Positions 4,427 through 59,054 of a stretch of DNA of 64,000 nt are shown in pieces; positions within the stretch are counted from its first letter, which is position 1; every line of letters starts with the position of its first letter. The notes under the pieces are model-generated. The model saw nothing but the letters and a program-made list of their open reading frames with translations, was not told the origin of the DNA and made no database searches. Source of the stretch: Haloarcula marismortui ATCC 43049 (GTDB lineage Archaea; Halobacteriota; Halobacteria; Halobacteriales; Haloarculaceae); assembly GCF_000011085.1 (NCBI RefSeq), contig NC_006395.1, forward strand, positions 62,001 through 126,000, written 5' to 3'. The position numbers and the translations under genes were made by a program.

Positions 4427-4452
4427 GTAATCTATTCGATACTGTAGTCGTA

Positions 4453-5724: not shown

Positions 5725-5758
5725 TGAGAGCTAGAGACAATACGGGCTGTCGACACTG

Positions 5759-35360: not shown

Positions 35361-35499
35361 CACCGAGTTACTGGCACAGCAGGACTAAAGCCAGTTCTGA
35401 GTACAAAAAAGCGAGGCAACAGTGGATCCACTGCCAGTTGATAGATGATCGTCTGCAGGTTTCGGCAGGTATTTGTTTCAAGACAGAAAACTGACACCA

Positions 35500-36258
35500 A
35501 TGTCTTCTCGCAGGTCAGTGTGTCTTGAGGAGATGGCATGGCCAGAAATTGAGTCTGCCCTCGAAAACGGAACACGGACAGTGGTCGTAGCTGTCGGTTC
35601 GATCGAACAGCACGGCCCACACCTGCCGCTGAATATGGATACGCTGGATGGGGATGAACTCGCACGGCGAATAGCGGCCGAGATGGGTGATGCGCTTGCC
35701 GCCCCCACAATCCGCCCCGGATGTTCGGGGCATCACATGGAGTTCCCCGGGACAATAACCGTTCCACCCGAGACATTGATGGATGTCATCCGGTCGTACT
35801 GCAGGTCACTCGATACCCACGGCTTCGAACACATCGTGCTGGTCCCGACCCACGGTGGGAACTTCGGACCGGTCAAAACCGTGGCACCCGATATCGCACG
35901 TGAACTCGAAGCCGCCGCAATCCCGCTCGCCGACCTCGACGAACATATGCAACTGCTGAACCAGGGACTCAGCAAGGCCGGTATCGAGTACGAGCAAGAT
36001 GTAATTCACGCCGGGGCCGCCGAGACAGCGATTGTGCTGGCCATCGACGAGGGACTCGTCAGGATGGAGGATGTCGAACCCGGGCCTGAAGGTGATATTT
36101 CGCCGGCTCGGTTGCTAAGTGACGGATTCAAATCAATTACTGAAAACGGCGTCCTCGGTGATCCGACGGCGGCAACCGCCGAGGCCGGCGAAGCGATCAT
36201 CGAAAATGTCGTCGGAGCGTACGTCAAGCAGGCCACGGCCGAGCGCAATGCCGTCTAA
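35500..36258 (+). CDS. Creatininase-family amidohydrolase
   Basis: A 252-residue protein of the creatininase family, whose members hydrolyse amide or formamide bonds with two metal ions; archaeal ArfB (riboflavin/F420 pathway) and MftE are relatives. Metal ligands are visible at E36, H38 and D47 (GSIEQHGPHLPLNMD), with further candidates in SGHHMEFPGT, THGGNFG and AGAAETA. The ATG at 35500 is preferred to one nine codons upstream. It lies beside the divergent biosynthetic block that follows and may belong to the same pathway; no ribD or other riboflavin gene is present. Confidence 0.87.
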   Translation: MSSRRSVCLEEMAWPEIESALENGTRTVVVAVGSIEQHGPHLPLNMDTLDGDELARRIAAEMGDALAAPTIRPGCSGHHMEFPGTITVPPETLMDVIRSYCRSLDTHGFEHIVLVPTHGGNFGPVKTVAPDIARELEAAAIPLADLDEHMQLLNQGLSKAGIEYEQDVIHAGAAETAIVLAIDEGLVRMEDVEPGPEGDISPARLLSDGFKSITENGVLGDPTAATAEAGEAIIENVVGAYVKQATAERNAV

Positions 36259-36449
36259 TGGAGGTATAGGCGTGTGTCAGCCTTGCCGGGCAGTGATTTG
36301 AGGTGAGAAGAGATGCCGCTGTCCGAGAGACTGTCGATTTGGTTGTTCTGTTGGCAGAGACTGATTCAGTCCAGCAGTGTTGGTAGTTCCATGCAGCGAC
36401 GGTTCAGGGCTGTAATGCGGTGCTGTAGTGTACGCAGGAGCAGAGTTGG

Positions 36450-36929
36450 TCAATCGATTCGGTCCCGCGGGCCAGCACGGGCGCTTCTTGTGACGTGCCT
36501 GATGAGCAGCCCCGCGGCAGTCAGCCAGAGCATAACTTCGAGAAAAAACGATGGACTCCAGAGGTAGTACAGGAAGAACGACCCCGGTGGGAGCGCCAGT
36601 GGGTCCGTCGGAGTGACAGCAGGCCAGAGCAGAAAGACCGCGTCGCCGGGGCGACCGTTGAGGACAACGTGAAGGGCATCGAGGGAGAGATGCAGCGCCC
36701 ACCCGAGTGCTGCCGACAGCCCGGCACGCCCAGAAAGCGCTAGAGGGAGAGCCACAATGACGAGCAAAACAGAGTGACCGACAGAGTGATACAGGGTGGT
36801 GACACCGACCATGGCAAGCGGCTTATCGACCACATCGGGCACGGCGGTCCCGACCACCAGCCACAGCGGCGACAGCCGTGACACACGTCCCAGAATCGCG
36901 GCCGCGAGCAGGTGTGTCAGAAAGAGCAT
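36450..36929 (-). CDS. DUF457-type membrane-bound metal-dependent hydrolase
   Basis: A 159-residue membrane protein starting MLFLTHLLAAAILG, with HSVGHSVLL and DALHVVLNGRPGD further on. The conserved His and Asp residues near membrane segments recall the DUF457/YdjM family of inner-membrane putative metal-dependent hydrolases. The start at 36929 leaves a 25-bp gap from the CDP-alcohol phosphotransferase upstream, so it is the last gene of a leftward operon that begins with the fusion gene at 40201. Confidence 0.75.
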   Translation of the reverse strand: MLFLTHLLAAAILGRVSRLSPLWLVVGTAVPDVVDKPLAMVGVTTLYHSVGHSVLLVIVALPLALSGRAGLSAALGWALHLSLDALHVVLNGRPGDAVFLLWPAVTPTDPLALPPGSFFLYYLWSPSFFLEVMLWLTAAGLLIRHVTRSARAGPRDRID

Positions 36930-36954
36930 ATGGAATGATGGGTACAGAGACGTA

Positions 36955-37728
36955 TCAACGCTGCCGGTCGAACCACTCGCGGGGGAGTCGCCCACTGGCA
37001 ACGAGGAAATCACGAAGGAACACCGCCAGCGACGGTGCGAGGACGACCGGCGTGAGCCTGAAGACGAGTTCTGTCGGTACCACAGGGACGAGTGCGGCAG
37101 TGATAAACACCATCTGGACGCCGGCGAGATACTTCCCGAGGTTGCTGTCGGGCCGCTCGAAAACCGGTCGGTCCCGGTATCGCCGCCAGCGGATACCGCC
37201 GACATAGGCGTACCGGGCCGCCGACAGCGAGAGGTACAGGACGGGGAGTTGGCCCCAGAAGACCGCGACGAGTGGTGCGACCACGAACCCAAAGGTGTCG
37301 AAGGCCATGTCCAGCCGCGTGCCAAGTTGCGTCTGTTCGCCGACTGTTCGGGCGACGGTGCCGTCGAGTTTGTCCAGCACGACGCCGACGCCGTAACACG
37401 CCGCCGGGACCCAGGCGAGGTCGGTCGTCGCCGGCACCACGAGAAAGCCCGCAACGACAGCATAGAGCCCACCGCGGAGTAACGTCACGGTGTTCGCCAT
37501 CCCGAAGATGTAGCGCCAGGGGTTACCGGCAGCCGGCGGGACGCTGAGCTTTCGGCCGACGTACCAGAGCTGTCCAGCCCAGCAACAGCCCGCGACGACC
37601 GCCGGGTGGAACATCCAGCGCGTCATCGCATCGGCGGGAAACAGCATGCCGACGATGACGGCTATGAGGAACCCGCCGACCACAGAGAGTTCGACGGGAA
37701 CTGGGCTGTCACCGTGTTGCTCGGCCAT
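36955..37728 (-). CDS. CDP-alcohol phosphatidyltransferase family enzyme
   Basis: A 257-residue membrane enzyme with the complete CDP-alcohol phosphotransferase signature: D119, D122-G123, A126-R127, G136, D140 and D144. Members transfer a phospho-alcohol from a CDP carrier to an acceptor alcohol, making phospholipids or polyol-phosphate derivatives. Six hydrophobic segments are expected and visible. It is more distant from phosphatidylglycerol or archaetidyl-inositol synthases than usual, so the acceptor is unclear. Its linkage to a glycosyltransferase and dehydrogenases suggests a lipid or polyol acceptor in a dedicated pathway. Confidence 0.85.
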   Translation of the reverse strand: MAEQHGDSPVPVELSVVGGFLIAVIVGMLFPADAMTRWMFHPAVVAGCCWAGQLWYVGRKLSVPPAAGNPWRYIFGMANTVTLLRGGLYAVVAGFLVVPATTDLAWVPAACYGVGVVLDKLDGTVARTVGEQTQLGTRLDMAFDTFGFVVAPLVAVFWGQLPVLYLSLSAARYAYVGGIRWRRYRDRPVFERPDSNLGKYLAGVQMVFITAALVPVVPTELVFRLTPVVLAPSLAVFLRDFLVASGRLPREWFDRQR

Positions 37729-37773
37729 CGAACCCTCCTGGTTCCCGGCTGTTCGCCGCCGTGCTAGCTTCGC

Positions 37774-38157
37774 TCATCGCAACAGCGCAACGAGGACCGC
37801 AAGCAGGACGAGCTGTGCGAGCTTGTCGGCTGCGCCGAGAGTCCCGACATCAGCCGGGAACGATTTCGGCCCGGCGGCGAAGTTGACGTAGTACCACAGC
37901 AGTATCTGGACGAGCGTGAACGGGATACCGACAGCGTAGACGAGGCGACGGCGGATACCCAAGGCGACCAGCGCGATAGCGCCGAGAAACCCCAGTCCCG
38001 CGAGGATGAAGCTGATACCGAGCCCGGATGGAGCCAGCCTGACGCCGAGAAGGAGGTGTATCGCGGCTGTGACGAGTGCCGCGATGATACCAAGCCAGTG
38101 TCGGCTATCCAGTGAGGCTACGTCGAGGGAACGTCCCTGTGTCTCCGTCGCGGCCAT
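37774..38157 (-). CDS. Small multi-pass membrane protein
   Basis: A 127-residue protein with four hydrophobic segments (about 25-40, 45-65, 70-90, 105-125). Similar proteins in haloarchaea carry a DUF7475 label. It sits between the fusion gene and the CDP-alcohol enzyme in the leftward operon. Function is unknown; it may organise the membrane enzymes. Confidence 0.7.
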   Translation of the reverse strand: MAATETQGRSLDVASLDSRHWLGIIAALVTAAIHLLLGVRLAPSGLGISFILAGLGFLGAIALVALGIRRRLVYAVGIPFTLVQILLWYYVNFAAGPKSFPADVGTLGAADKLAQLVLLAVLVALLR

Positions 38158-38206
38158 GGGCTAGGTTCGGCGTTCAGTCACATAATGATACTGCCAATTG
38201 CACCGC

Positions 38207-40201
38207 TTACCGCTCGAAATCCGGCTGTCGAAGTGCCTCGATGCGGGCACACGCTTCTGCGTCGAGTCGCTGCCCAGCGGCGGCGAGGTTCTCGACGATG
38301 TGGGACGGTGTCGTACTGGACGGAATCGGAACGACGCCCTGTGTGACGTTCCAGGCCAGTACCACGCCGGCTGGTGATAGGCCGTACTCCTCCGCGATAG
38401 CCGCCAGAACAGGCTCGTCGAGCAGTCCGGGGGCTGACAGCGGGGAGTGAGCGACGACCCTGATGCCGCGTTCGTGGCAGTATTCAATGAGGTCTGTCTG
38501 TGGCTGGTACGGATGGCGCTCGACCTGTACCAGCGCCGGCCTGACAGTCCCCGTTTCGATGACTGTCTCCAGTTGTGTCTGCGAGACGTTACAGAGCCCG
38601 AGCGTGCGCGTCCAGCCTCGTTCGTGGAGGGCCTCCAGATTCTCCCAGGCGCGCTGGAGTGAGACCGAGTCCGTCTCGATGTCGCCACGATCGTTTTTGG
38701 GGAAGGTCAACGCCTCCTGACGCGCGACCGATTTCTCGGCCAGTCGCGTTAGCGACCCGCGATGAGCTAACGCCTCGGGCCAGTGCAGGGCATAGCAGTC
38801 GAACGCGTCGATACCCAGTTCGTCGAGACTGCTCCGACAGGCCGTCAGCATGTGCTTTCGACGGTGGTTCGTGCGCCAGACTTTCCCGAGTATGAACACC
38901 CGACGCCGGTCGGGGGCACCGGGGGCAGCCAGAATGCGGCCGATACGGTGCTCGTTCCCGTACAGTTCAGCGCTGTCAAGCAGTCGGTAGCCGGCGTCGA
39001 GGGCCGCCGCGATAGAGTCCGCACGGTCGATGTACGTTCCGTCACGATATCGGGAACAGCCAAAGCCGATAGCCGGGAGCCGGATCGCTTGCTCCCGGCT
39101 CCCGTCCCAGTCTCTGTCCGGGGTGACGGTCGGCGGTGGCGTTGAGTCCGCCGCCGTGCCGTAGTCGGACACAGTCTCAGACTCGCCCGTCTCGGCAGCC
39201 GTCTCAATCGCATTACAGACTGCAACAATGTGGGCACCGCGGCGACCCGTCATCCGCGATGGGGTCCCCCGGGTGACACTGGCCGCAAGCGACTCGACCG
39301 GGTCGAGATAGCGGTAGGGTTGCGTGGGGTGCTGTGCGGGAGCATCGATGTATTCGCGGCCGATACGACCGTACTGCACGGCGGTCGTACTATCAGCCAT
39401 CGCGCCGGTCCCACGGAGATATAGCGACCCGTCGTCACCGTGGAGTTCGAGCCCGTAGAACTCGCGGCTCCGGTGTGGCGCGTAGAAGCTCGCGGTCAGC
39501 CGGACCGTCAGCCCTCCGTCGAACGAAAGCATCGCCTCGACGTGGCTGGGCGCAGACGGTCGCTCTGGCTCTCGCTCGGGCCAGCTATCGAGTGTCGTTG
39601 CGGTCTGAACGGATTTGACAGGGCCGAACCACGAGACCAGCAGCGCGAGCGGATAGACGCCCCCGTCGTACAGCGGCCCGATAGAGAGAAACGAGCCGGG
39701 TCGGTCGTGCCAATCTGTCACGCGACCGACGTGGGCGTGGGCGTACCCCAGCTGAACGGGTCCCATACGGCCGTCGGCGAGCATTTGCCCGGCGCGACGC
39801 TGTGAGGGCGCATCGGGCGTCCCCGGGGCACAGCCCAATGCCAGATTCCGGTCTTGGGCCAGCGCCAAGAGCTCCGCGGCCGCCGCCTCGTCCAGTGCGA
39901 GGGGCTTTTGCGAGTAGACGTGCCGTCCGGCTTCGAGCGCCGTTCGGGTCACCGGTGCGTGGGCGGCGTGGTTCGTCAGGTTCACAACCAGCGGCGCGTC
40001 AACGGCGGAAAGCGCGGTGTCGAGGTCGGTAAAGGCCGGGCAGTCGTGCGCCGCGGCGAGTGCTGTCGCCCGGTCTTCTTCGAGGTCGCAGACGCCCGCC
40101 AGCGAGAGCGGGCTGTCTGCCAGTTCGGCCGCGTACTCCGCCGCGATACTGCCCGCACCGACGAACAGACAATGCACACTCGAACGCGGGCGTCCTCGCA
40201 T
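38207..40201 (-). CDS. Gfo/Idh/MocA oxidoreductase fused to aldo/keto reductase
   Basis: A 664-residue two-enzyme fusion. The N-terminal part (about 1-345) is a Gfo/Idh/MocA NAD(P)-dependent sugar dehydrogenase with a Rossmann GAGSIA at 16-21; the usual EKP of the catalytic lysine is QKP at 98-100. A short linker leads to an aldo/keto reductase (about 365-664) with all four catalytic residues: D409, Y414, K440 and H473. Joining both in one chain suggests channelled oxidation and reduction of a sugar or polyol, an epimerisation-type step. It heads a leftward operon and faces the 40252 gene across 50 bp. Start ATG 40201; an ATG three codons earlier is possible. Confidence 0.85.
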   Translation of the reverse strand: MRGRPRSSVHCLFVGAGSIAAEYAAELADSPLSLAGVCDLEEDRATALAAAHDCPAFTDLDTALSAVDAPLVVNLTNHAAHAPVTRTALEAGRHVYSQKPLALDEAAAAELLALAQDRNLALGCAPGTPDAPSQRRAGQMLADGRMGPVQLGYAHAHVGRVTDWHDRPGSFLSIGPLYDGGVYPLALLVSWFGPVKSVQTATTLDSWPEREPERPSAPSHVEAMLSFDGGLTVRLTASFYAPHRSREFYGLELHGDDGSLYLRGTGAMADSTTAVQYGRIGREYIDAPAQHPTQPYRYLDPVESLAASVTRGTPSRMTGRRGAHIVAVCNAIETAAETGESETVSDYGTAADSTPPPTVTPDRDWDGSREQAIRLPAIGFGCSRYRDGTYIDRADSIAAALDAGYRLLDSAELYGNEHRIGRILAAPGAPDRRRVFILGKVWRTNHRRKHMLTACRSSLDELGIDAFDCYALHWPEALAHRGSLTRLAEKSVARQEALTFPKNDRGDIETDSVSLQRAWENLEALHERGWTRTLGLCNVSQTQLETVIETGTVRPALVQVERHPYQPQTDLIEYCHERGIRVVAHSPLSAPGLLDEPVLAAIAEEYGLSPAGVVLAWNVTQGVVPIPSSTTPSHIVENLAAAGQRLDAEACARIEALRQPDFER

Positions 40202-40251
40202 ATATATCATATCGCCAGTGGGATTTTATTGGCCGCCGCCGAATACCGGAC
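40202..40251. promoter_or_regulatory. Shared divergent promoter of the biosynthetic block
   Basis: Only 50 bp separate the two divergent start codons. TATATATCATAT lies next to the leftward start, and TTTTATT (40224-40230) lies 22-28 bp before the rightward GTG at 40252, suggesting leaderless expression of the rightward operon. The short distance implies coordinated control. Confidence 0.5.
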
Positions 40252-41136
40252 GTGACAGAACCGGGAATGAGCCGGCTCGGGACGGCGTACTTGCGCGCAT
40301 TGCAGGCGCTGGGCCGGCGGGTTCCGTACGGAACAAACGTCTACCAGCGCGAGTGGGACGTTCTCGTTGTTCTCGATGCCTGTCGTGCTGACTTGTTACG
40401 GGCTGTCGCCCCCGACACCGGGCTGTTCGATACCGTTTCGACGGTCCGCTCGGTCGGGAGTTCCTCCTCGGAGTGGCTGGAAAACACGTTCTCCGGTCAT
40501 CCAGAAACAGCTCAAACCGTCATGGTCACCGGCAACACGTGGACCGACCGGTATCTCGATGCCGACGCCTTCGCTGCGCTGGACGAGGTCTGGAAGTACG
40601 CGTGGGACGAGGACCTGAACACCGTCCCGGCTGCAGCCGTGACCGACCGGGCCATCGCGCTAGCCCGGCGGCTGGACCCCGAGCGGCTGGTCGTCCATTA
40701 CATGCAACCACATCACCCGTTCGTCCCCGAGCCGCTCGACGGCGACGGCGGTCTGGCCCGTACTGGACGCCACAGTAACACGGCAAATCCGTGGGTCGCG
40801 CTCCGTCGTGGCGAGGTTTCGGCGGACCGCGTCTGGAACGCATACGAGGCGAACCTCCGGTATGTCCTCCGGGAGGTGGAAGCGCTGGCTGAAAACGTCG
40901 ACGGCCGCATCGCTGTCACCGCCGACCACGGCAATCTCTTCGGGGAGTGGGGGTTGTACGGCCATCCGATGCACACGCCAGTCCCGGCGCTGCTGGCGGT
41001 GCCGTGGGCCGAGACCGACGGCGTCGACAGCGGGGAACGCGAGCCCGACCTGCGTCCGCCCGAGCCGCTCCCAGTGTCGCGCGTCTACGGCGCCGAAAGC
41101 GACAGGGACCGACTGGATTCGTTGGGATACTTGTAG
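40252..41136 (+). CDS. Alkaline phosphatase-superfamily (sulfatase-like) hydrolase
   Basis: A 294-residue phosphatase/sulfatase-fold protein. Metal residues appear in DVLVVLDACRADLL and AVTADHGNLFGE, with GHPMHTPVP near the C-terminus. The nucleophile segment (GSSSSEWLENTF) is serine-rich without a formylglycine motif, so a phosphoester or phospho-transfer role is likelier. It ends in RLDSLGYL, nearly the same tail as the protein encoded at 24682. The GTG at 40252 fits a TATA box; ATG 40267 is the alternative. First gene of the rightward block. Confidence 0.78.
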   Translation: MTEPGMSRLGTAYLRALQALGRRVPYGTNVYQREWDVLVVLDACRADLLRAVAPDTGLFDTVSTVRSVGSSSSEWLENTFSGHPETAQTVMVTGNTWTDRYLDADAFAALDEVWKYAWDEDLNTVPAAAVTDRAIALARRLDPERLVVHYMQPHHPFVPEPLDGDGGLARTGRHSNTANPWVALRRGEVSADRVWNAYEANLRYVLREVEALAENVDGRIAVTADHGNLFGEWGLYGHPMHTPVPALLAVPWAETDGVDSGEREPDLRPPEPLPVSRVYGAESDRDRLDSLGYL

Positions 41137-41268
41137 TCAATCAGGAGGTACTTTTTAGTCGGAGAAAGCCTGGATAGGAGACGTGCATTCCCGGAGCCGT
41201 CGCCACGTCCGAAGGAGCTGGCATCGAAACATCGGCACCGGCCGCCCACGTCCTCAGGAGACGGTGTA

Positions 41269-42258
41269 ATGTCCGCCAGAACGCTGTACTTTACCGGCGG
41301 GAAGTCGGTTCGGGTTGACGAAGAAGCGGTGCCTGACCCCGGACCATCGGAGGTCCGTGTTCGAACCGAACTCTCAGGAATCAGTCCCGGAACAGAGCTG
41401 TTGGTGTACCGTGGTGAGGTCGATTCGGAACTCGCGACCGACGAGACGATCGACGCCCTTGATGGTACGTTCTCGTATCCACTGCAGTACGGCTACGCCG
41501 CTGTCGGCTGTGTCACGGCCGTCGGGGACGCGGTTGACGACGACTGGCTCGACCAGCGTGTGTTCGCGTTCAACCCACACGAAAGCCACTTCCTCGCCGA
41601 GCCGTCGTCGCTTATTCCCACGACGTTACCGCCGGAGCAGGCGGTGTTCATCCCGAACGTCGAAGCAGCGGTCAACTTCGTGATGGACGCTCGACCGCGT
41701 ATCGGGGCTCGGGTTGTCGTCTTCGGTCAGGGGCCGGTGGGCCTGTTGACGACCGGGCTGCTGGCCGATTTTCCGCTGGCGTCGCTCGTGACGGTCGATC
41801 CCTGTGCGGGCCGCCGTCGGCTCTCGGAAGCGCTCGGGGCAGACCGCTCAGTCTCTCCCGGGAATCTCGATGACGACGACGCCGACATCACGTTCGAGCT
41901 CTCGGGGAACCCAACCGCACTCGACAGAGCGATCGACGCCACTGGCTATGCCGGTCAGGTCATCGTCGGTTCGTGGTACGGCTCAAAGGATGTCTCGCTT
42001 GACCTCGGACATCACTTCCACCGGAGCCACATCCGCCTTCGCAGCAGTCAGGTGAGCCGCATCGATCCGGATCACGCCGACCGCTGGGACAAGGACCGGC
42101 GGCTGGATGTCGTCCGGTCGTGGCTGAGCGACACTGACCTCTCGGCGCTACTGACACATGAGATCGATATCGAGCGTGCAGCCGAAGCGTATCAACTGCT
42201 AGAGAGCCGGCCAGACGACGCTGTACAGGTAGTGTTGACGTACAACGGACACCCGTGA
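41269..42258 (+). CDS. Zinc-type alcohol dehydrogenase family, catalytic Cys absent
   Basis: A 329-residue medium-chain dehydrogenase. The nucleotide fold has VVVFGQGPVGLLTTG at about 149-163. The catalytic-zinc region reads SGISPGTE (36-43) with no Cys, and the structural-zinc four-Cys lobe is missing. This matches the Cys-less subgroup of BchC-like or sugar-related dehydrogenases, which probably oxidise or reduce a polyol or sugar with NAD(P). It is followed after 30 bp by the broken pterin-synthase gene. Confidence 0.84.
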   Translation: MSARTLYFTGGKSVRVDEEAVPDPGPSEVRVRTELSGISPGTELLVYRGEVDSELATDETIDALDGTFSYPLQYGYAAVGCVTAVGDAVDDDWLDQRVFAFNPHESHFLAEPSSLIPTTLPPEQAVFIPNVEAAVNFVMDARPRIGARVVVFGQGPVGLLTTGLLADFPLASLVTVDPCAGRRRLSEALGADRSVSPGNLDDDDADITFELSGNPTALDRAIDATGYAGQVIVGSWYGSKDVSLDLGHHFHRSHIRLRSSQVSRIDPDHADRWDKDRRLDVVRSWLSDTDLSALLTHEIDIERAAEAYQLLESRPDDAVQVVLTYNGHP

Positions 42259-42288
42259 TTTAGGTGGGTCCCGGCCGTTCGTTCGGGT

Positions 42289-42665
42289 ATGTACACGACG
42301 ACGGTTCGGACTGAGTTCGTGGCACAGCATTACCTCACTGTCCCGAACCCGGGGCCCGAGGGTGACCCGCACTACACCACTACAGGGTCGAACTATGTTT
42401 CCGCGGCCCCGAACTCAACGAGTTCGACTACATCGTCGACATCGACAATGCCGACACAGCCCTGTCGTCACTCGCCGACCGGTACCGGGACACGATGCTC
42501 AATGACCTCCCGGAGTTCGAAGGCTACAACCCCAGCGTGGAGCGGTTTGCCCGTGTTATCTTTGAGCGTGTCACCGAGCGTGTCACCGACGAGACGGTCA
42601 CCGAACTGTCGGTCACCATCTGGGAGGACGAGGAAGCCGCTGCGAGTTACAACGCCGCCGTATGA
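42289..42665 (+). pseudogene. 6-pyruvoyl-tetrahydropterin synthase/QueD family, frameshifted
   Basis: Two frames together spell a COG0720-type protein of 125 residues. Frame one (42289-42372) gives MYTTTVRTEFVAQHYLTVP and ends at the first His of the zinc HxHHY motif. The rest continues from 42375 in another frame (HHYRVELCFRGPELNEFDY), to a TGA at 42663-42665 that overlaps the next ATG. One base is missing in the codon at 42373-42374, most simply the C of a TCA serine. A Glu sits where QueD has its catalytic Cys. Either the gene is inactivated or the sequence has an error; the intact downstream overlap and coding character favour a recent event or error. Confidence 0.8.
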
Positions 42666-43729
42666 GGGTCGGCCTGACCCTGTACGGGAGCCTCGACGAG
42701 CAGTCAGGCGGGTTTCGATACGATAGAAAACTCGTCGAGGGACTCCGAGCGGCCGGCGACACTGTCGAGTGTATCCAGCTCCCCTGGCGTGACTACCACA
42801 GAGGGCTGCTCGACAACGGGTCGCGAAAGCTCCGCCAGCGGCTGGATGTGGATGTCGATGTCATGTTACAGGACGAACTCGCCCATCCGTCGCTCGTCCG
42901 CACAAACCGTGCCCTCTCGTACCCGATTGTCAGCATCGTCCACCACTTGCGGGCGAGCGAGCCGCGCCGACTTGCACCGCTGTACCGGGCGGTCGAGCGT
43001 CGCTACCTCGGGACTGTTCAGGCCGTGGTCTGTAACAGCGCCACGACCCGAAACGTCGTTACCAACCTCGGCGTCGACCCCGAGGACACCGTCGTCGCGC
43101 CGCCGGCTGGGGACCAGTTCGACCCTGATATCGACCGAGCGACAATCGAGCGACGGGCTACCACCGAGCCGCTGCAGGTTGTTTTCGTCGGAAATGTCTC
43201 GCCTCGAAAGGGGCTCGATACGCTCGTCGATGGTGTGGCTGCGGCTGCTGTCGACATCGACCTCACCGTCGTCGGTCGCCACGTCGATGCAGCCCACGTG
43301 ACTTCGGTACAGGAGCGCGTCCGCGAACACGATTTAGCTGACCGCGTGCAGTTCGCGGGTCGGCTCCCAGACGGCGAGTTGGCGAAAACCCTCCGGTCGA
43401 GCCACGTCCTTGCGGTACCGTCCCGGTACGAAGGGTTCGGCATCGTCTATCTGGAGGGGATGAGCTTCGGCCTCCCGGCGCTGGCCACCCGGGCTGGCGG
43501 AGCGGCCGACATCGTAACCGACGACGAAACAGGGGTACTCGTCGACCCGGACGACTCGGCAGCCGTCGCTCGCGAACTGGAGCGGTTCGCCACCGACCGG
43601 GACCGCTTGGCTGAGATGGGGTGGGCCGCGAGACGGAACTACGAGACGCACCCGGATTGGGAAGAGACGGTCGGGCGGGTTCGGGACCTGCTGTCTGATA
43701 TTGTTCAGCCCACGGAGGTACCGGCGTGA
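42662..43729 (+). CDS. GT4-family glycosyltransferase
   Basis: A 355-residue retaining glycosyltransferase of the GT-B fold. The C-terminal nucleotide-sugar domain has VGNVSPRKGLDTLV (about 176-189) and the EGFGIVYLE signature with E257 and E265 seven residues apart. It transfers a sugar from a nucleotide donor to an unknown acceptor. The ATG overlaps the stop of the pterin-synthase-like gene (ATGA), and its own stop overlaps the methyltransferase start (GTGA), so translation is coupled along the operon. Confidence 0.88.
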   Translation: MRVGLTLYGSLDEQSGGFRYDRKLVEGLRAAGDTVECIQLPWRDYHRGLLDNGSRKLRQRLDVDVDVMLQDELAHPSLVRTNRALSYPIVSIVHHLRASEPRRLAPLYRAVERRYLGTVQAVVCNSATTRNVVTNLGVDPEDTVVAPPAGDQFDPDIDRATIERRATTEPLQVVFVGNVSPRKGLDTLVDGVAAAAVDIDLTVVGRHVDAAHVTSVQERVREHDLADRVQFAGRLPDGELAKTLRSSHVLAVPSRYEGFGIVYLEGMSFGLPALATRAGGAADIVTDDETGVLVDPDDSAAVARELERFATDRDRLAEMGWAARRNYETHPDWEETVGRVRDLLSDIVQPTEVPA

Positions 43730-44622
43730 CGGAATCGTTCCAGCGGTATCTGCGGGCGAAGCGGACTGTCGACGACCGCGCGCTGGACCGCCGGCTGGTC
43801 GAGATGCTCCGCGAGCAGTTGGCGGCCCGGGCAGCCGACAGCGACGGGCCGCTACGTGTCCTCGAAATCGGGGCCGGCATCGGCACGATGCTCACCCGGT
43901 TCCTCGAATGGGACGTGCTTCCCGCGGGAGAAGTCCACTACACTGCAGTCGATATTCAGTCGGAGAACGTAGCTCACTTGCCCGACCACATCCGGGACTG
44001 GGCCGTCGACCGTCAGATATCGATAGGCGACAGCCCACTCGTCCTGAAAGCCGAAAACCGACGAATCGAAATTGAGACGGTACAGGCCGAGGCGGTGGCC
44101 CATGCGGCGGCCGCCGACGGCAAATACGACCTTCTCATCGGGGCCGCCCTGCTCGATATTCTCGACCGTCAGAAACTGCCGACGTTGCTCGAACCGCTTG
44201 CACCGGGTGGCCTGTACTACTTCCCGATCACGTTCGACGGGGCGACCCGCTTTCAGCCGAGCCATCCAGCCGACCGGGCAGTCGAACAGCACTATCACGA
44301 CCACATGGACGCGAAAGAGGGCGGTGACAGCCGTGCCGGCGGCGACGTGCTTGCCCATCTCCAGCGCCTCGACAGCATAACGCTGTCAGGGGTGGCCGGG
44401 TCGGACTGGGTCGTCCGGCCTGTCGACGGGAGCTACCCGGCTGACGAAGCCTACTTCCTCAGATACATTCTCGACACTATCGAGGACGCGGTCGGCGAGA
44501 TGACTGGTAGCGACTTCGAGGAACTCGACGGCTGGCTGGCACGCCGACGTGCGCAGGTCGCTGCCGCCGAACTGCTGTACCATACGCATCAACTGGATTT
44601 CCTTGGCCGTGTCGACTCGTGA
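43726..44622 (+). CDS. Class I SAM-dependent methyltransferase
   Basis: A 298-residue methyltransferase with motif I LEIGAGIGTML (46-56) and an acidic ribose-binding DIQSEN about 27 residues later. It starts at a GTG overlapping the glycosyltransferase stop. As the last gene of the rightward operon it may methylate the glycosylated product, but the acceptor is unknown. Confidence 0.83.
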   Translation: MTESFQRYLRAKRTVDDRALDRRLVEMLREQLAARAADSDGPLRVLEIGAGIGTMLTRFLEWDVLPAGEVHYTAVDIQSENVAHLPDHIRDWAVDRQISIGDSPLVLKAENRRIEIETVQAEAVAHAAAADGKYDLLIGAALLDILDRQKLPTLLEPLAPGGLYYFPITFDGATRFQPSHPADRAVEQHYHDHMDAKEGGDSRAGGDVLAHLQRLDSITLSGVAGSDWVVRPVDGSYPADEAYFLRYILDTIEDAVGEMTGSDFEELDGWLARRRAQVAAAELLYHTHQLDFLGRVDS

Positions 44623-44720
44623 ATCCCGCACTGTTAAGCCCTAAAACACGGCTGAAGCGATAGTATTTTTCGGAACGACCGGTCTGCCACACAGGTATCA
44701 CAGACTGCCTGACCCTGTCG

Positions 44721-47498: not shown

Positions 47499-48527
47499 AT
47501 GCCCCAAGGTCTCGATGTCGGTACGATGAACCTCCTGTCTGCACGTCAAGATGGTAACGAAACAGTATTCGTGCAGCAACGGAACTCCTTCGTTGAAATT
47601 GACTACAGCGATATGGCCGAACAAATGCTGTCGAGAAGTGACGTTCTCCACATCCGCAAGGATGATCGGGTCTATATTGTTGGCGATGACGCCCTGAATT
47701 TCGCGAACATCTTCAGCGAGGAGACGCGCCGACCGATGCAGGCCGGGATTCTCTCAAGCGACGAGCAATCAGCAATTCCGATGATTAAGCTCATCACTGA
47801 ACAGGTGGTGGGACAACCGGAGTACCCGAATGAGCGTCTGTTTTTCTCGGTTCCTGCGGACCCTATCGACGCCGATGTTTCGACGCTGTATCATCAAAAG
47901 ACGGTTGAGTCACTCCTTACTGATATGGGATACAGCCCAGAGCCGATCAATGAGGGGATGGCCGTCATCTACTCGGAGCTTGCAAATCGTGAGTTCACTG
48001 GCCTCGGCATCAGCTTTGGCGCTGGGATGACCAACGTTTGTCTGTCGTACTATGCAGTCCCCGTAATGAAGTTCTCCATCGCACGCGGTGGTGACTGGAT
48101 CGACGAGCAAGCTGCACAGGCGACCGGCACGCCCGTAGATAAGGTTACTTCGGTCAAAGAAGAAGACTTCGCACTCAACTTTGAGACGGATGTCGGTGGT
48201 ATTGAAGGTGCATTGAGCATCTATTACGACAATCTCCTCGACTATGTCATCGAAAACATCATCAGTGAAGTTGATGAGGAAGATGTCGAGGAGGGATTGG
48301 ATGTCCCGGTCGTTGTGACTGGCGGGACATCGAGTCCTGATGGCTTTGAAGAGTTGTTCGCCGAACGGATCAATGACTCCGAGATACCATTCTCGATCAG
48401 CGATGTCCGCCAGGCCGAGAATCCACTGTATAGCGTCGCACAGGGAGCACTCGTCGCAGCGCGGTCGGAAGAGGAGCGCGAAGGGCAAGCCGAGCAGCCC
48501 GAGGAACCAGACGCCTCCGCTGAGTAA
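47499..48527 (+). CDS. Salactin-like actin homologue
   Basis: A 342-residue actin-superfamily ATPase. The phosphate-1 loop GLDVGTMNL is at 4-12, the second phosphate loop [11 protein letters not shown] is near 168, and the adenosine loop [12 protein letters not shown] is near 285. It resembles salactin, the dynamically unstable haloarchaeal actin that forms filaments. The acidic C-terminus of about 30 residues ([16 protein letters not shown]) may be a partner-binding tail. It has a strong ribosome-binding site and is grouped with several low-complexity acidic proteins, which are the best candidates for partners. Confidence 0.85.
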
Positions 48528-53514: not shown

Positions 53515-54213
53515 TCAGACCGCGAGGTACTCCGCAATCGCGTCCTCGTCGGCAATAGTCGACGGACCGAGTTCGTCAACGACCGTGCCACGCTCCATCG
53601 CGTAACAGCGGTCGGCCATCTCGCGGATGACCCCGAGGTTCTGCTCAACGAACAGAATCGTCGTCCCGAGGTCGTCGTTGATTGTCTGCATATCCTGGCT
53701 GATCTGGTCGACGATAGAGGGCTGGATGCCCTCGGACGGTTCATCGAGCAAGAGCAAGTCAGGATTCGAGACCAGTGCGCGGCCGATGGCGAGCATCTGC
53801 TGTTGCCCGCCCGAGAGCGTTCCGGCTTCCTGACTGGCCCGTTCTTCGAGCACGGGGAAGTAATCGTATATCTGGTCGTACAGCGTTTCGTCGCTCTCCG
53901 ACCGGATGGTCTCGCCCATCTTGATGTTCTGCTCGACGGTTAGCTTGGGGAACACGTCCCGGCCCTGCGGGATGTAGCCGATTCCGGCCCGGGCGCGCTC
54001 GTCAGCACTCGCGTGAGTCACGTCCGTGCCGTCGTAGCTGATGGTCCCCTCGCTGGGCTCCAGCAAGCCCATCACCGTCTTCAGCAGCGTCGTCTTGCCG
54101 ACGCCGTTTTTCCCCATCACCCCGACGATTTCTTCCTCCTCGACGGAGAGGTCCACATCCCGCAGTATCGGCGTTGTGTCGTAGGCTGCAGAAACCTCGT
54201 CGAGTTCGAGCAT
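53515..54213 (-). CDS. urtE: Urea ABC transporter ATP-binding protein UrtE
   Basis: A 232-residue LivF-type ATPase: Walker A GKNGVGKTT, signature LSGGQQQ, and Walker B LLLLDEPSEGIQP, the last being typical of UrtE. It powers branched-chain-type import of urea with UrtD. Start ATG 54213 sits 6 bases after GGAGGTGA; another ATG at 54216 is only 3 bases away. It overlaps the urtD stop, so translation is coupled. It is the last gene of urtABCDE. Confidence 0.9.
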   Translation of the reverse strand: MLELDEVSAAYDTTPILRDVDLSVEEEEIVGVMGKNGVGKTTLLKTVMGLLEPSEGTISYDGTDVTHASADERARAGIGYIPQGRDVFPKLTVEQNIKMGETIRSESDETLYDQIYDYFPVLEERASQEAGTLSGGQQQMLAIGRALVSNPDLLLLDEPSEGIQPSIVDQISQDMQTINDDLGTTILFVEQNLGVIREMADRCYAMERGTVVDELGPSTIADEDAIAEYLAV

Positions 54214-55019
54214 CATGACTCACCTCCCAGATATATCCGCTGGACCTCTGGGTCGGATTCGATTTCTTCAATCGGTCCCTCGCGGAACACCTCACCGTTG
54301 TGCAGGACGGTCACTTCTTCGGCGATGCTCGCGACGAAGTCGGTGTCGTGTTCGATAACAATGAAGGCGATCCCTTCCTCCTCGTTGAGCCGCCTGATCC
54401 GCTCGGCAATAGCTTCGCGTTCGGCCACGTCGAGGCCGGCGACCGGCTCGTCCAGCAGGAGCAGGTCGGGTTCGAGCGCGGCGGCCATCCCGATTTCCAG
54501 TTGCTGCTGTTGGCCGTGTGAGAGTTGCGACGCAGCAACGTCCTCGTAGCCGGTAAGGCCCGCAGCCTCGATAGCCTCGGCGACCAGCCGCCGTCGCTCC
54601 TCCCCGTCGGCGAACTGCTGGACGGGGAGCCTGACGTTCTCTCTGACACTCAGGTCACCGTACACGGACGGGACCTGGAATTTCATACTGATACCGCGAG
54701 AAACCCGCTCATGTGGGTCGAGGTCAGTGATGTCGTGGCCGTTGTAGTAGATACTGCCGTCGCTGGCCTCGTACGTCCCGGTAATCAGGTTCAGTAACGT
54801 TGACTTGCCAGCGCCGTTTGGGCCGATGAGACAGCGTAGTTCCCCCTCGGCGACCGAGAAGTCCACGTCGTCAGTGGCGGTGAACCCGCCGAACTGCTTG
54901 ACGAGCCCGTCGGTCTGTAGCAGTGTCTCCGTTCTGTCACCCGTTGCCAGTTCCGCAGCGGTTTGCCGGACGTTCGGTCCAAGCGGGTCGATGTCGGATT
55001 CGGTTTCAGTATCACTCAT
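54213..55019 (-). CDS. urtD: Urea ABC transporter ATP-binding protein UrtD
   Basis: A 268-residue LivG-type ATPase with a Walker A GPNGAGKST near residue 69 and a Walker B LLLLDEPVAGLD. The signature reads LSHGQQQ with His in the second position, a UrtD trait, as is the KFQVPSVY segment. A disordered acidic N-terminus of about 35 residues precedes the domain. It overlaps urtC by one base and urtE at its stop. Confidence 0.92.
   Translation of the reverse strand: MSDTETESDIDPLGPNVRQTAAELATGDRTETLLQTDGLVKQFGGFTATDDVDFSVAEGELRCLIGPNGAGKSTLLNLITGTYEASDGSIYYNGHDITDLDPHERVSRGISMKFQVPSVYGDLSVRENVRLPVQQFADGEERRRLVAEAIEAAGLTGYEDVAASQLSHGQQQQLEIGMAAALEPDLLLLDEPVAGLDVAEREAIAERIRRLNEEEGIAFIVIEHDTDFVASIAEEVTVLHNGEVFREGPIEEIESDPEVQRIYLGGES
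54220..54227 (-). promoter_or_regulatory. Shine-Dalgarno site of urtE
   Basis: GGAGGTGA on the minus strand lies 6 bases before ATG 54213, inside the urtD coding end. It favours that start over the adjacent ATG at 54216. Confidence 0.55.
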
Positions 55020-56173
55020 TAGTCACTCACCTCACTCGGCGTGTCGGGTGCGTCGGCCCCGCCAGCTTCGCCCGGACCGAGTCGAGTTTCGACAATCCGC
55101 TCGTGGAGCCACGGAACGAAGCCGCTCGGAAGGACCAGAATCGTCACCAGCAACAGGGTGCCAAGCAGGACTAGCGCCAGCTCACCCGCCATCGAGATGC
55201 GGAGGTATTCGATGGCGAGCGTGGCGACAACGGCCCCGAGCAAGCTCTTTCTGCCGCCGATGCTCACCCAGATGACCGGCAGCGTCGCGAACAGCAGCGA
55301 AAACACGGTCGGGTCGATGTAGACGTTCCGTGCGGCGTACAGCACACCGGACAGACCCGCAAGCGCGCCCCCCAGCGTGAACACGACGAACTTGATGCGG
55401 GTCACGTTGTAACCGAACATCTCGGTGCGGTCCTCATCCTCCCGGACAGCGACCATCACGCGGCCGTAGTCGGAGTTAACGAGGACCCGCAACCCGAGGT
55501 ACGTCCCGACCAGCAGGAGGAGGACGAGATAGTAGAACGGGCTGATTTCAAAGGATCCGATACCGATAATCCGCATCGGGAACGGGTTGTAGATGAACTG
55601 GTAGGAGGCACCTTCGATGCCGAGCGTCAGCAGCGGGATGTCCGGCATCCCGTTGAACCCGCCCAGTGCCGCCTCACCAATGGCCCACTCGGACCCGGCG
55701 GTCTGGGCCATGAAGGTGTGCATGACGATCGTCGAGACGAGCGTGATGATGGTCACGTAGACATCCCGCACGCCACCGTAGAACATGAAGTAGCCCAGTA
55801 TGGCTGCGCTGACACCGCCGCCGACGATACCGGCGACGACAGCGGCCGTGATACCCCCCGGGGTCGCAAAGTTGATCGAGACGACGCCGAACGTGTAGGC
55901 CCCGATACCGAAGAAGACGACCTGCCCGAAGCTCAGTACGCCCGAGTAGCCCCAGACGACCGACAGCGAAAGCCCCAGCAGGGCCAGCACCATGAACAGC
56001 GACAACTGCGAGCCGTCACCGAAGGCCGGGTAGACGACGAGCGCCGCCACAGCGACGGCGAAGCCGACCCAGAACCCACGCGATTCCCCGATGGTGTTTG
56101 GCCCCTCGAACCGACTGCGAAGCCGGCCCGGGAGCGACCTGTTCGCCTCGCCGTTTGCACTGTTTCTCGACAT
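55019..56173 (-). CDS. urtC: Urea ABC transporter permease UrtC
   Basis: A 384-residue LivM-type permease with about ten membrane segments. The SLSVVWGYSGVLSFGQVVFFGIGAY region is the conserved permease core, and GPNTIGESRGFWVG precedes the first helix. It forms the channel with UrtB. It is preceded by urtB with stop and start adjacent and overlaps urtD by one base. Confidence 0.9.
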   Translation of the reverse strand: MSRNSANGEANRSLPGRLRSRFEGPNTIGESRGFWVGFAVAVAALVVYPAFGDGSQLSLFMVLALLGLSLSVVWGYSGVLSFGQVVFFGIGAYTFGVVSINFATPGGITAAVVAGIVGGGVSAAILGYFMFYGGVRDVYVTIITLVSTIVMHTFMAQTAGSEWAIGEAALGGFNGMPDIPLLTLGIEGASYQFIYNPFPMRIIGIGSFEISPFYYLVLLLLVGTYLGLRVLVNSDYGRVMVAVREDEDRTEMFGYNVTRIKFVVFTLGGALAGLSGVLYAARNVYIDPTVFSLLFATLPVIWVSIGGRKSLLGAVVATLAIEYLRISMAGELALVLLGTLLLVTILVLPSGFVPWLHERIVETRLGPGEAGGADAPDTPSEVSD

Positions 56174-57112
56174 CTAGTCGCTCTCCTGTCTCCGTTTCCG
56201 CAGTTGTTCGATGAACCCGGTGATGCCGTCGGGGAGGAACCGGAGGGCGATGAGCGCAGCGACGAGTAGCGCGATACGGCCGATGAACGTCCCGTAGAGG
56301 TTCGAGAACGTGGCCAGAATCGCCCCGAGGACGCCCCCCGACAGCGCGGTCCCGAGAACGACGCTCGGCCCGCCGACGACGACGGCGACGAACGCCTCGA
56401 CCAGGAACTGGTCGCCAAGCGTCGGCTGCATCGAGATGACTGGGGCGAACAGCGCACCGGTCAGCCCGGCCAGCGCCGAGCCGATGCCGAACGTCAGCAT
56501 GTACATCCGGTCGGTGTTGACGCCCATGGCCTGTGCCGTTTCCTTGTCCTGTATCGTCGCCCGGGCGCGCATCCCGAAGTCGGTCCGGGTGAACAGGTAG
56601 TAGGTAGCCAAGAGCAGCCCGATGCTAACGCCGGCCAAGACGATCCGGTACGTTGAGTAGGAGAACGCCCCGTACGAGATCGCGCCGAACGGCGTGGCTA
56701 TCTGGTCGATGGAGTTCCCGAACCGAATCCGGGCCCCCTGCGTCAGTATCAGGCTGAGCCCGAACGTGGCGACCATCGAATCGGCCAGTCGGTTATACAG
56801 CGGTTCGATGATGTCACGGCCGAGGGTCCGCTGGCTGACCCAGTTGGGCCACGCCCCGGAGATGATGACCCGCTCGGTCAGAATCCCGAAGAGACCAGTG
56901 ACCACGCCGCCAACGAGCATCGCCACGACGAGCGGGAGGCCGAGTTGCGTCACGGCCAGCGTCGCGGTGTAGGCACCGATGAGGATGAACTCCCCGTGTG
57001 CCAGATTGATGACGCCCATAATCCCGAAGATGATGGCCAACCCCGCCGCGGCGAGCACGATGAACGCGAAGCTATCGAGGAACTGAAGCGCGAGGTTGAT
57101 CCCGTTTACCAT
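56174..57112 (-). CDS. urtB: Urea ABC transporter permease UrtB
   Basis: A 312-residue LivH-type permease with about eight membrane segments. GIMGVINLAHGEFILIGAY is the characteristic helix-loop of this family, and FGNSIDQ and MYMLTFGIGSALAG follow. The start is ATG 57112, 2 bp after urtA ends. It pairs with UrtC. Confidence 0.9.
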   Translation of the reverse strand: MVNGINLALQFLDSFAFIVLAAAGLAIIFGIMGVINLAHGEFILIGAYTATLAVTQLGLPLVVAMLVGGVVTGLFGILTERVIISGAWPNWVSQRTLGRDIIEPLYNRLADSMVATFGLSLILTQGARIRFGNSIDQIATPFGAISYGAFSYSTYRIVLAGVSIGLLLATYYLFTRTDFGMRARATIQDKETAQAMGVNTDRMYMLTFGIGSALAGLTGALFAPVISMQPTLGDQFLVEAFVAVVVGGPSVVLGTALSGGVLGAILATFSNLYGTFIGRIALLVAALIALRFLPDGITGFIEQLRKRRQESD

Positions 57113-57114
57113 CC

Positions 57115-58422
57115 CTACTCGGCCTCCTCGTAGTAGTCCACCGGGGTGTACTGGGTCTGTTCCGGGTTTTCGGGGAGGTTGCAGCCGGCCGTCTCCGAGA
57201 GGAACGTCTCGGGTATCTGGCGGTTCTCGACGGCTTCGACGTTGTGGTCGTCGTCGGCGCGCATAATCCACATGTGGTGGTCGACGTGGTGGGTCGCGCC
57301 GTCAAGACGGATTGTCTCACCCTCCGGTGCTTCAGGTGCCTCCTCGGTGCCGAGTTCGATGCCCGACTCCAGAGCGTCGATGACTTCCGGCTGTTCGGTG
57401 GTCCCGGCCTGCTCGACGGCTTTCTTGTACATATACGTCGAGAAGTAGTTGGTCTCGGCCTCCTCGTTGAGGTACGGGGCATCAGGGTACATCTCGAAGT
57501 ATCGGTCGACGAAGCCGCCATCGCCGGTGTTGCTGTCGGTCGGCACCTCCTCCATGTAGTTGACGCCCGCGTAGATGTTGGCCATCGCCGGGGCGTCGAG
57601 CCGTCGGTGCTCGTATCCCTGTGCCATTGCCGTCGAAGTGCCGATTGGCACGTCGAGACCGGCCGAGGCCTTCTGCTCGTAGAACGACGTGTGGTTCGCG
57701 CCAACGAGCATCGACATCACGAAGTCCGGGTCGGCCTCCTGAATCCGGTTGATGGTCGACCCGAAGGAGGACTCGCTCAGCGGGATGAACTCCTCGCCGA
57801 GGACGTTCGCATCGTTTTCGTTTGCCAGCACCTTCACCCAGTCCGCGGAGAGCTGGCCGAAGTTGTAGTCAGCCGCAATGGTGTAGATGTCCGGGCCGAA
57901 CTCCTCGACCAGATACGGGAGGACGATACCGAGTTGCTGGCGGGCGGTCGGGCCGACCGCGAAGGTGAATTCGTCACAGACGCCGCCCTCGTACTGGGTG
58001 GTGTAGAAGTAGAGCTGTTCGTTGCGGTCGATTATCGGACGGATGGCTTCCCGGGTTGCTGAGGAGTAGCCGGCCCACAGTGCGTCGACGTTCTCCTCGT
58101 TGATCGCCGTGCGGGTGAGTTCCTGATAGCGCTGATTGTCCGACTGTGGGTCGCGCTGGAACGTCTCGATTTGCTTCCCGTCGATACCGCCGTTAGCATT
58201 GATTTCCTCGATGGCGAGCATCGACGCCTTTGCCTTCGGGTCGCCGACGAGGGCGAAGTTCCCGGACTGGTCCTCTAGCACCCCGATTTTGAGCGTGTCG
58301 GTACTGCTCGCGGTGTCCGTCGAGGTCCCGCCTTCACCGGCAGAACAGCCGGCGAGGCCGGTAACGAGTGCGGCCCCGCTCGCGCCGAGGAACTGACGGC
58401 GGCTGACAGACGAGCGATTCAT
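57115..58422 (-). CDS. urtA: Urea ABC transporter substrate-binding lipoprotein UrtA
   Basis: A 435-residue exported binding protein. A Tat signal (SVSRRQFLGASG) and a LAGC lipobox at about residues 23-26 anchor it outside the membrane. The mature part is a periplasmic binding protein fold of the amide/urea (FmdD/UrtA) type, with DTLKIGVLEDQSGNFA and AGYSSATREAIRP. It captures urea or short amides and hands them to UrtBC. ATG 58422 overlaps the stop of a 50-codon upstream frame (ATGA). Confidence 0.92.
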   Translation of the reverse strand: MNRSSVSRRQFLGASGAALVTGLAGCSAGEGGTSTDTASSTDTLKIGVLEDQSGNFALVGDPKAKASMLAIEEINANGGIDGKQIETFQRDPQSDNQRYQELTRTAINEENVDALWAGYSSATREAIRPIIDRNEQLYFYTTQYEGGVCDEFTFAVGPTARQQLGIVLPYLVEEFGPDIYTIAADYNFGQLSADWVKVLANENDANVLGEEFIPLSESSFGSTINRIQEADPDFVMSMLVGANHTSFYEQKASAGLDVPIGTSTAMAQGYEHRRLDAPAMANIYAGVNYMEEVPTDSNTGDGGFVDRYFEMYPDAPYLNEEAETNYFSTYMYKKAVEQAGTTEQPEVIDALESGIELGTEEAPEAPEGETIRLDGATHHVDHHMWIMRADDDHNVEAVENRQIPETFLSETAGCNLPENPEQTQYTPVDYYEEAE

Positions 58423-58571
58423 GCGTCTCCCTCCGATACTAGGTTCTTGTTAGGATTATTATGTCCATTATCTTTGGCCATCTCTCGTTCTTTACTCACA
58501 ATATCCAAACGTTCGTCCATGATTTCGTTCACAGTGTTGCCGTCTGGGAGGGAGAAAATAAGTTTTACCAC
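58419..58571 (-). CDS. Possible 50-codon frame coupled to urtA
   Basis: From a GTG at 58571 the minus strand gives a frame of 50 residues (VKLIFSLPDGNTVNEIMDER, then an Asp/Lys/Asn-rich helix) whose TGA overlaps the urtA ATG. The overlap mirrors the ATGA links inside the urt and ure operons. The codons are AT-rich, unlike the neighbours, so chance is a real alternative. It may be a small leader peptide that couples translation to urtA. Confidence 0.3.
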   Translation of the reverse strand: MVKLIFSLPDGNTVNEIMDERLDIVSKEREMAKDNGHNNPNKNLVSEGDA

Positions 58572-59054
58572 TCTTATCTTATATTGTCCACCACATAGTC
58601 TTGAGAGTATAAGGTCGTCAAAGGATATGGCGAATAGTCAGCGAAAGCAGTAGTGCTGCCGATAAAATTTGAACTATTCCGCTATTTTGTGCCGCTGTCG
58701 GTCAATGGGACAAAAGAACAAATTGCTGGCGTTGTTCCGGTGCAGTGACCTGTACGACCGTTGTCAGTCAAATCTGGCTTCTGCGTCCCGAAATCACCCG
58801 CTGTATGCTCGCCCGCGCTGTAAGTGTCGCCGGTCACCGAAACCACCGGTAGACTGGACGTGAGTCGTGTTGGCTTCGGGAAGTAGGACAGTTCGATAGT
58901 CGAACCCCTTTATCTAGGGTCGAAACTTTAGCATTTAATCCGGTTCTCGATATAGAGGCGTCACTTGCGCAGAGAGCAATCATTTTAGTATGTGTATTCA
59001 AAGAGAAGGGCAGATGATAGACAAACAGTCAGAAATACTCGGGGCGGTGGCGCG
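58572..59054. other. Divergent region between urt and ure operons
   Basis: No larger gene. It must hold the promoters for both nitrogen operons; AT-rich runs at about 58925-58940 and 58980-58995 are candidates for the ure side. No symmetric operator is obvious. Confidence 0.45.

Follow-up and report, generated by a model that had tools for sequence, protein, structure and literature searches.

A divergent gene block on a Haloarcula marismortui plasmid, probably one lineage's version of a widespread cluster branching off early riboflavin synthesis

Two divergently transcribed gene sets occupy positions 35,500 to 44,622 of a 64,000-nucleotide stretch of Haloarcula marismortui ATCC 43049 DNA (the window; NC_006395.1, positions 62,001 to 126,000), carried by a plasmid of 410,554 bases that is near-identical to NZ_CP039137.1 (one indel in 16.9 kb). 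They raise the question of whether dehydrogenases, a pterin-synthase (PTPS) homologue, a CDP-alcohol phosphotransferase, a glycosyltransferase and a methyltransferase serve one pathway and, if so, what that pathway makes. An earlier note, written from the sequence alone, had proposed a single route to a glycosylated, methylated, perhaps lipid-linked molecule with a pterin or sugar core. The comparisons reported here lead us to think it probable, if some way from certain, that the block represents, in one lineage, a widespread biosynthetic cluster whose route leaves riboflavin synthesis at its first steps. Families in the block were called by hidden Markov model scans (Pfam, NCBIfam), which bore out those named in the earlier note, the matches being weak for the sulfatase/phosphatase-fold protein and the methyltransferase. 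The features, with the two gene sets termed arms A and B, are as follows.

35473..36258 (annotated start about 35500), plus strand: creatininase-family amidohydrolase (PF02633, E=1.9e-67), a doubtful member of the block
36464..36943 (about), minus strand: small membrane protein of arm B, read as an open reading frame and matching no Pfam family
36955..37728, minus strand: CDP-alcohol phosphotransferase of arm B (PF01066, E=4.6e-15)
37774..38157, minus strand: DUF7475 membrane protein of arm B (PF24287, E=9.2e-12)
38207..40210, minus strand: GFO/IDH/MocA dehydrogenase fused to an aldo/keto reductase (GFO/AKR), arm B (PF01408, PF22725, PF00248)
40211..40251, no strand: divergent intergenic region, with CATATATATATC at its edge, which may overlap the start of the longest open reading frame
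40252..41136, plus strand: alkaline-phosphatase/sulfatase-superfamily protein, start of arm A (PF00884, E=5e-4, weak and below cut-off)
41269..42258, plus strand: MDR dehydrogenase lacking zinc ligands, core gene (PF00107/PF16912; BchC-like NCBIfam match)
42289..42665, plus strand: PTPS-like tunnelling-fold enzyme, core gene, frameshifted by a one-base deletion near 42374
42662..43729, plus strand: GT4 glycosyltransferase, core gene (PF00534, E=2e-34)
43726..44622, plus strand: class I S-adenosylmethionine-dependent methyltransferase, core gene (weak Pfam matches)
44623..44720, no strand: site of the GTP cyclohydrolase III gene in H. argentinensis and others; the gene is absent from the window block

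Whether the two arms belong together was approached by searching 60 haloarchaeal genomes for the dehydrogenase, the PTPS homologue and the CDP-alcohol phosphotransferase. Strong dehydrogenase matches occurred in 29 of the 60; the PTPS homologue was present in those genomes and in one more, an incomplete genome, making 30. The phosphotransferase was present in 27 of these 30 PTPS-positive genomes and in none of the 30 PTPS-negative ones, the three haloarchaea with a PTPS homologue and no phosphotransferase being G041, G042 and G053. Within the genus (32 genomes) the split is all-or-none: 14 have all three genes, 18 have none and there are no exceptions (Fisher p=2e-9, uncorrected for shared ancestry). 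The earlier note had staked its single-pathway idea on co-occurrence of the arms in other genomes, and the idea survives: the two arms go together as a unit. They adjoin each other in many haloarchaeal genera, and the phosphotransferase and DUF7475 genes lie beside the core in Chloroflexota.

Neighbourhood maps place the arms side by side in Haloarcula, Natronomonas, Natrinema, Halorientalis, Halovenus and elsewhere; haloarchaea at a greater distance keep the dehydrogenase-PTPS-(GT4)-methyltransferase core, with the phosphotransferase, DUF7475 and GFO/AKR genes near it in changed order. Across 91 haloarchaeal loci, partly picked by similarity and including species duplicates, so that the counts describe rather than estimate, we found the PTPS homologue in 84, GT4 in 75, the methyltransferase in 70, the phosphotransferase in 53, DUF7475 in 49, GTP cyclohydrolase III in 42, the GFO/AKR fusion in 30, the sulfatase-like protein in 26 and the small membrane protein, beside the phosphotransferase gene, in 23. 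Orthologues of the sulfatase-like protein at 76% or above are confined to 14 block-positive genomes. The divergent arrangement also recurs in other haloarchaeal loci, and CATATATATATC is conserved in the shared intergenic region of close relatives (alignment of 9 loci); the divergent gap described earlier as a shared 50-bp promoter measures 41 bp between the longest open reading frames, or 89 bp if the annotated H. sinaiiensis starts are used. In Halorubrum and Halobellus (L087, L088, L101, L123) the PTPS gene lies on the strand opposite to the dehydrogenase, and in three of these four loci the phosphotransferase and DUF7475 genes come after it.

The core extends well beyond the haloarchaea, its dehydrogenase-PTPS-GT4-methyltransferase order recurring in Chloroflexota, Desulfobacterota, Alpha- and Gammaproteobacteria and Actinomycetota. 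In the Chloroflexota and Desulfobacterota loci, found by scanning species genomes with an alignment of the dehydrogenase, the reductase domain of RibD (RibD_C) is encoded directly upstream of the core, and in Chloroflexota it is preceded by GTP cyclohydrolase II, DUF7475, an LPG_synthase_TM protein and the CDP-alcohol phosphotransferase. A search of plasmids added loci from Methylosinus, Rhodobacteraceae, Agrobacterium, Neorhizobium, Thiodictyon, Streptomyces and Microbacterium, with RibD, RibA, the phosphotransferase, an LPG-type protein, creatininase, sulfatase and cytochrome b561 among their neighbours. As a guard against selection by similarity, an unbiased draw was made of 198 Desulfobacterota and 201 Chloroflexota genomes: true dehydrogenase homologues were present in 11 and about 31 of them respectively, and the 37 dehydrogenase loci from this draw had PTPS nearby in 27, GT4 in 27, RibD_C in 24, GTP cyclohydrolase II in 7 and the phosphotransferase in 1, counts that contig ends depress. 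Between-locus distances of the dehydrogenase agree with those of PTPS (Mantel r 0.87), GT4 (0.86), the methyltransferase (0.87) and the phosphotransferase (0.71; p=0.001 throughout), and the cluster is therefore inherited mostly as a unit.

Several neighbours are more local. A cytochrome b561 gene (PF01292) adjoins RibD in the Thiodictyon and Agrobacterium clusters (L138:10464-11021, L141:11987-12520), and an MdoH-type membrane glucosyltransferase gene adjoins the core in Methylosinus and Neorhizobium (L134:5070-6872, L144:6082-7995). Four Chloroflexota loci (L156, L157, L161, L162) have a cation antiporter-like gene between the dehydrogenase and PTPS genes, twice with a ComB-like gene; these names come from reading the sequence, and the genes were rejected as cluster members, not being general across loci.

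What the cluster starts from is suggested by an extra gene. In haloarchaeal blocks a GTP cyclohydrolase III (NCBIfam name) immediately precedes the dehydrogenase or immediately follows the methyltransferase—in locus L096 the methyltransferase at 12459-13352 is followed by the cyclohydrolase at 13419-14156 and MaoC at 14479—and a second GTP cyclohydrolase III is present in 13 of the 30 block-positive haloarchaeal genomes and in none of the 30 block-negative ones. Bacterial loci have GTP cyclohydrolase II (PF00925, a Pfam call) in this place, an enzyme of an unrelated family. Unlike GTP cyclohydrolase I, enzymes II and III open GTP to formamido- or diamino-pyrimidine ribotides. The use of unrelated enzymes at one step is good evidence that the cyclohydrolase step matters, and points to a cluster that branches off early riboflavin synthesis. 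RibD-family neighbours that were scanned contained RibD_C only, with no deaminase domain, and the RibA neighbours PF00925 only; RibB, RibH and deaminase are likewise unannotated in the plasmid loci, whose gene tables are incomplete. H. marismortui itself has a single GTP cyclohydrolase III, on another contig, its largest.

Two Streptomyces loci bear on the product of the bacterial enzyme. At the position aligned with Tyr105 of E. coli RibA, both Streptomyces block cyclohydrolases (L137:12581-13240 and L143:15484) have Met, and Tyr is found elsewhere where the position is readable. Met at this position in SCO6655 is said, from Spoonamore's work of 2006, to direct formation of the formamido product, as made by GTP cyclohydrolase III. 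It is suggestive, from two cases only, that the Streptomyces block enzymes would likewise give the formamido product; both loci carry a creatininase gene. The residue before DTVxAN, tried as a switch residue, proved uninformative, since it varies freely in ordinary riboflavin copies.

The creatininase gene beside the window block is indeed present, with both metal-site motifs (EQHGPHLPLNMD and HGGN), and is a possible formamidopyrimidine deformylase like ArfB, an enzyme of the creatininase family; it scores 20.2 bits with the ArfB model NF033501 against a cut-off of 180. Its link to the block is weak in haloarchaea, with 4 of the 91 haloarchaeal loci having it; it is linked to the block in close Haloarcula and recurs in both Streptomyces loci.

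The PTPS homologue is a clear member of its family: the window fragment scores 68.9 bits against a PF01242 cut-off of 22.4, and the intact H. argentinensis homologue has a predicted structure (pLDDT 95) whose fold matches those of SCO6650 and QueD. The catalytic Cys of CxxxHGH, however, is found in none of 135 block PTPS sequences, its column holding Glu in 113, Ala in 21 and Ser in 1; the zinc His residues are kept in 130 (N-terminal His) and in 124 and 123 (HxH), and the C-terminal Glu, which we take to anchor the 2-amino-4-oxo ring in this fold, in 134. With the Cys missing from every sequence, the public annotation as '6-carboxytetrahydropterin synthase' (QueD; L133:9021-9398) is, judged by this motif, wrong. 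The NCBIfam QueD score is 43.4 bits, short of the cut-off of 89.25, and the H. marismortui genome has a separate QueD that carries CSRPHGH.

In ATCC 43049 this gene is broken, the earlier note having recognised the family correctly but not the state of the gene. The reading frame changes after the first 28 or so residues, and a profile of relatives matches it as two pieces in the H. marismortui genome. H. sinaiiensis ATCC 33800, 99.2% identical over 16.9 kb, has an extra C at 42374 and an intact, annotated gene; the deletion is common to the second H. marismortui record, and no break was seen in the 29 further genomes that carry the gene. A sequencing error shared by the two records, both from the same strain, is unlikely, and a programmed frameshift is not favoured, the gene being in frame in close relatives. 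The deletion suggests a recent loss of the pathway in this strain: because the PTPS-like gene is frameshifted, the H. marismortui pathway is probably defective. At 39266 the second record lacks one C and its GFO/AKR gene is unannotated, while the window copy is open; one of the two records is probably wrong there.

The dehydrogenase has invariant Ser and Tyr in alignments at the positions where the Cys and His zinc ligands of MDR enzymes are expected; the description "Cys-less" thus holds for the zinc ligands and not literally, two Cys being retained. The DG-x2-AR-x8-G-x3-D-x3-D motif of CDP-alcohol phosphotransferases is invariant in 13 aligned relatives, and the EX7E motif of GT4 has invariant E257 and E265. 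The AlphaFold2 model of the methyltransferase (pLDDT 93) matches class I methyltransferases, too generically for a substrate to be read from structure, an attempt that was dropped.

Put together, these families would allow the following route. GTP would be opened by a riboflavin-type cyclohydrolase to a formamido- or diamino-pyrimidine ribotide, the precursor in H. marismortui coming from the chromosomal GTP cyclohydrolase III; the Glu/Ala tunnelling-fold enzyme would act on a 2-amino-4-oxo-pyrimidine or a pterin derived from it; the zinc-less dehydrogenase would oxidise or reduce a side-chain hydroxyl; and GT4 and the methyltransferase would add a sugar and a methyl group. That the bacterial RibD reductase domain comes with no deaminase domain suggests retention of the 2-amino group. 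Arm B might then couple the ribityl or sugar phosphate with a CDP-activated lipid, so that a pterin-like cofactor would be anchored in the membrane; on its families such lipid anchoring is plausible. Since entry is most likely at GTP by way of a riboflavin-type cyclohydrolase, a pterin or 2-amino-4-oxo-pyrimidine core is likelier than the sugar core that had been offered as the other choice.

Four observations pull against this route. RibD_C and a pterin-forming PTPS sit uneasily together, because a reduced ribose blocks the pterin rearrangement; RibD_C must act at another point of the route, or else the route makes a ribityl-pyrimidine and no pterin. Most bacterial loci have no phosphotransferase, DUF7475 or LPG-type gene nearby (phosphotransferase in 1 of 37), so that lipid attachment is not general unless the genes lie elsewhere. 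In several genomes the block cyclohydrolase is the only copy and must also serve riboflavin, in which case its presence could be simple co-location. Finally, 49 of the 91 haloarchaeal blocks have no GTP cyclohydrolase III nearby, and many bacterial blocks no GTP cyclohydrolase II.

Other readings must be weighed as well. The cluster might be two pathways lying side by side, the core making a soluble glycosylated, methylated pterin or pyrimidine akin to the pterin glycosides known from bacteria, and the phosphotransferase-GFO/AKR arm an independent lipid or sugar; this we regard as unlikely, though deserving of serious weight. Desulfobacterota and many Chloroflexota do have the core with no phosphotransferase arm nearby, as do the three haloarchaea named above with a PTPS homologue and no phosphotransferase. 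The converse, the phosphotransferase in a genome lacking the core, was met in 0 of the 60 genomes, the two are co-inherited (r 0.71), and the phosphotransferase also stands beside the core in Chloroflexota, Streptomyces, Microbacterium, Thiodictyon and Agrobacterium. A more ambitious form of the single-pathway reading is that the product is a membrane-anchored, glycosylated and methylated pterin-like (2-amino-4-oxo-pyrimidine) redox cofactor of archaea and several bacterial phyla, joined to lipid by the phosphotransferase, flipped by the LPG_synthase_TM-type protein, partnered by cytochrome b561 and made through a new reaction of the Cys-to-Glu enzyme on the riboflavin precursor, with two proteins splitting what GTP cyclohydrolase I does alone; we consider this distinctly unlikely as a whole.

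Placing the cluster within flavin or F420 metabolism, its core genes modifying or regulating a flavin or deazaflavin, accounts for the riboflavin-type cyclohydrolases and RibD_C that adjoin the core, and agrees with an unpublished remark on PTPS-IV, cited in Zallot et al. 2016 (PMC5041015), that puts this family in flavin/F420 metabolism. Yet no RibB, RibH or deaminase domain turned up among the annotated loci, the 30 block-negative haloarchaea all do without the cluster, and 6 of 17 block-positive bacterial genomes, which may be incomplete, have no CofD-type sequence, weakening F420 as the product. The strongest CofD matches elsewhere mostly have lengths typical of YvcK, which the Pfam CofD search also catches (the E. 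coli control was positive), and counts of CofD presence were accordingly left unused. We judge this reading improbable. Very improbable, to our minds, is a cluster for a surface polysaccharide or glycolipid, with the PTPS homologue co-opted for sugar chemistry and the cyclohydrolase adjacent but unrelated: GT4, GFO/AKR, the sulfatase-like protein and MdoH beside the core in Methylosinus and Neorhizobium would fit it, but not the ring-anchoring Glu kept in 134 of 135 PTPS sequences, nor the recurrence of unrelated GTP cyclohydrolases at one place in two domains of life.

Four known systems come closest to the cluster. SCO6650 (3d7j), of the PTPS-IV group (COG0720), is the closest solved structure to the block PTPS by sequence and fold. 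The FGPAQ signature published for that group is carried by 9 of 9 block members from Proteobacteria and Actinobacteria; haloarchaeal members have PGPEGxPHSHH instead and so lack FGPAQ, and most of those in Chloroflexota and Desulfobacterota resemble them in having ExxxHSH in its place. The AGeNNT paper of 2017 (PMC5445326) reports PF00925 and RibD_C near PTPS-IV; the bacterial loci here have RibD_C in 24 of 37 and GTP cyclohydrolase II in 7 of 37, and in haloarchaea GTP cyclohydrolase III stands in their place (42 of 91). The paper labels PF00925 GTP cyclohydrolase I / FolE2, whereas the Pfam name is GTP cyclohydrolase II. Part of the bacterial neighbourhood is thus already on record, without a function, and the dehydrogenase-PTPS-GT4-methyltransferase-phosphotransferase set is not described in the accessible portions of PMC5041015 and PMC5445326. 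Within the searchable literature, outside which lie subscription papers including Phillips 2012 on COG0720, the full gene set, its archaeal version and the cyclohydrolase replacement are undescribed. QueD (PTPS-I) shares family and fold with the block enzyme, which lacks its CxxxHGH. The archaeal riboflavin pathway shares its first enzyme, the block-borne GTP cyclohydrolase III being ArfA-type, and deletion of arfA in Haloferax causes riboflavin auxotrophy (PMC8305020); the block instead continues with the PTPS homologue, GT4 and the methyltransferase, and with no later riboflavin enzymes.

Pterin glycosides are known—limipterin, cyanopterin and solfapterin—and start from dihydroneopterin triphosphate; we know of no comparable gene set for them. 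The simplest product of the cluster would be a pterin with a sugar attached and sometimes a methyl group.

Elsewhere in the window, an archaeal actin homologue, volactin (PF25216, E=6e-134), is encoded at 47499-48527, 3 kb downstream of the block. At 53515-63657, genes for a branched-chain-type ABC transporter precede those for urease alpha and UreG-, UreD- and UreE-like proteins, a set that probably serves urea uptake and urease, and at 4423-7375 an acetamidase/formamidase gene is followed directly by a TCP-1/cpn60 chaperonin gene, here on a plasmid.

The earlier note mentioned neither the break in the PTPS gene of ATCC 43049, nor the cyclohydrolase that adjoins the block in relatives, nor how widely the cluster is spread among bacteria. 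That archaea and four or more bacterial phyla have kept the gene set together, and that its precursor comes from two unrelated enzymes, argues strongly for a GTP-derived metabolite yet to be discovered. The cluster gives that metabolite a specific first precursor and a candidate enzyme for each step, and allows the role of PTPS-IV to be tested in hosts amenable to genetics; a lipid-linked product would represent a new class of membrane cofactor.

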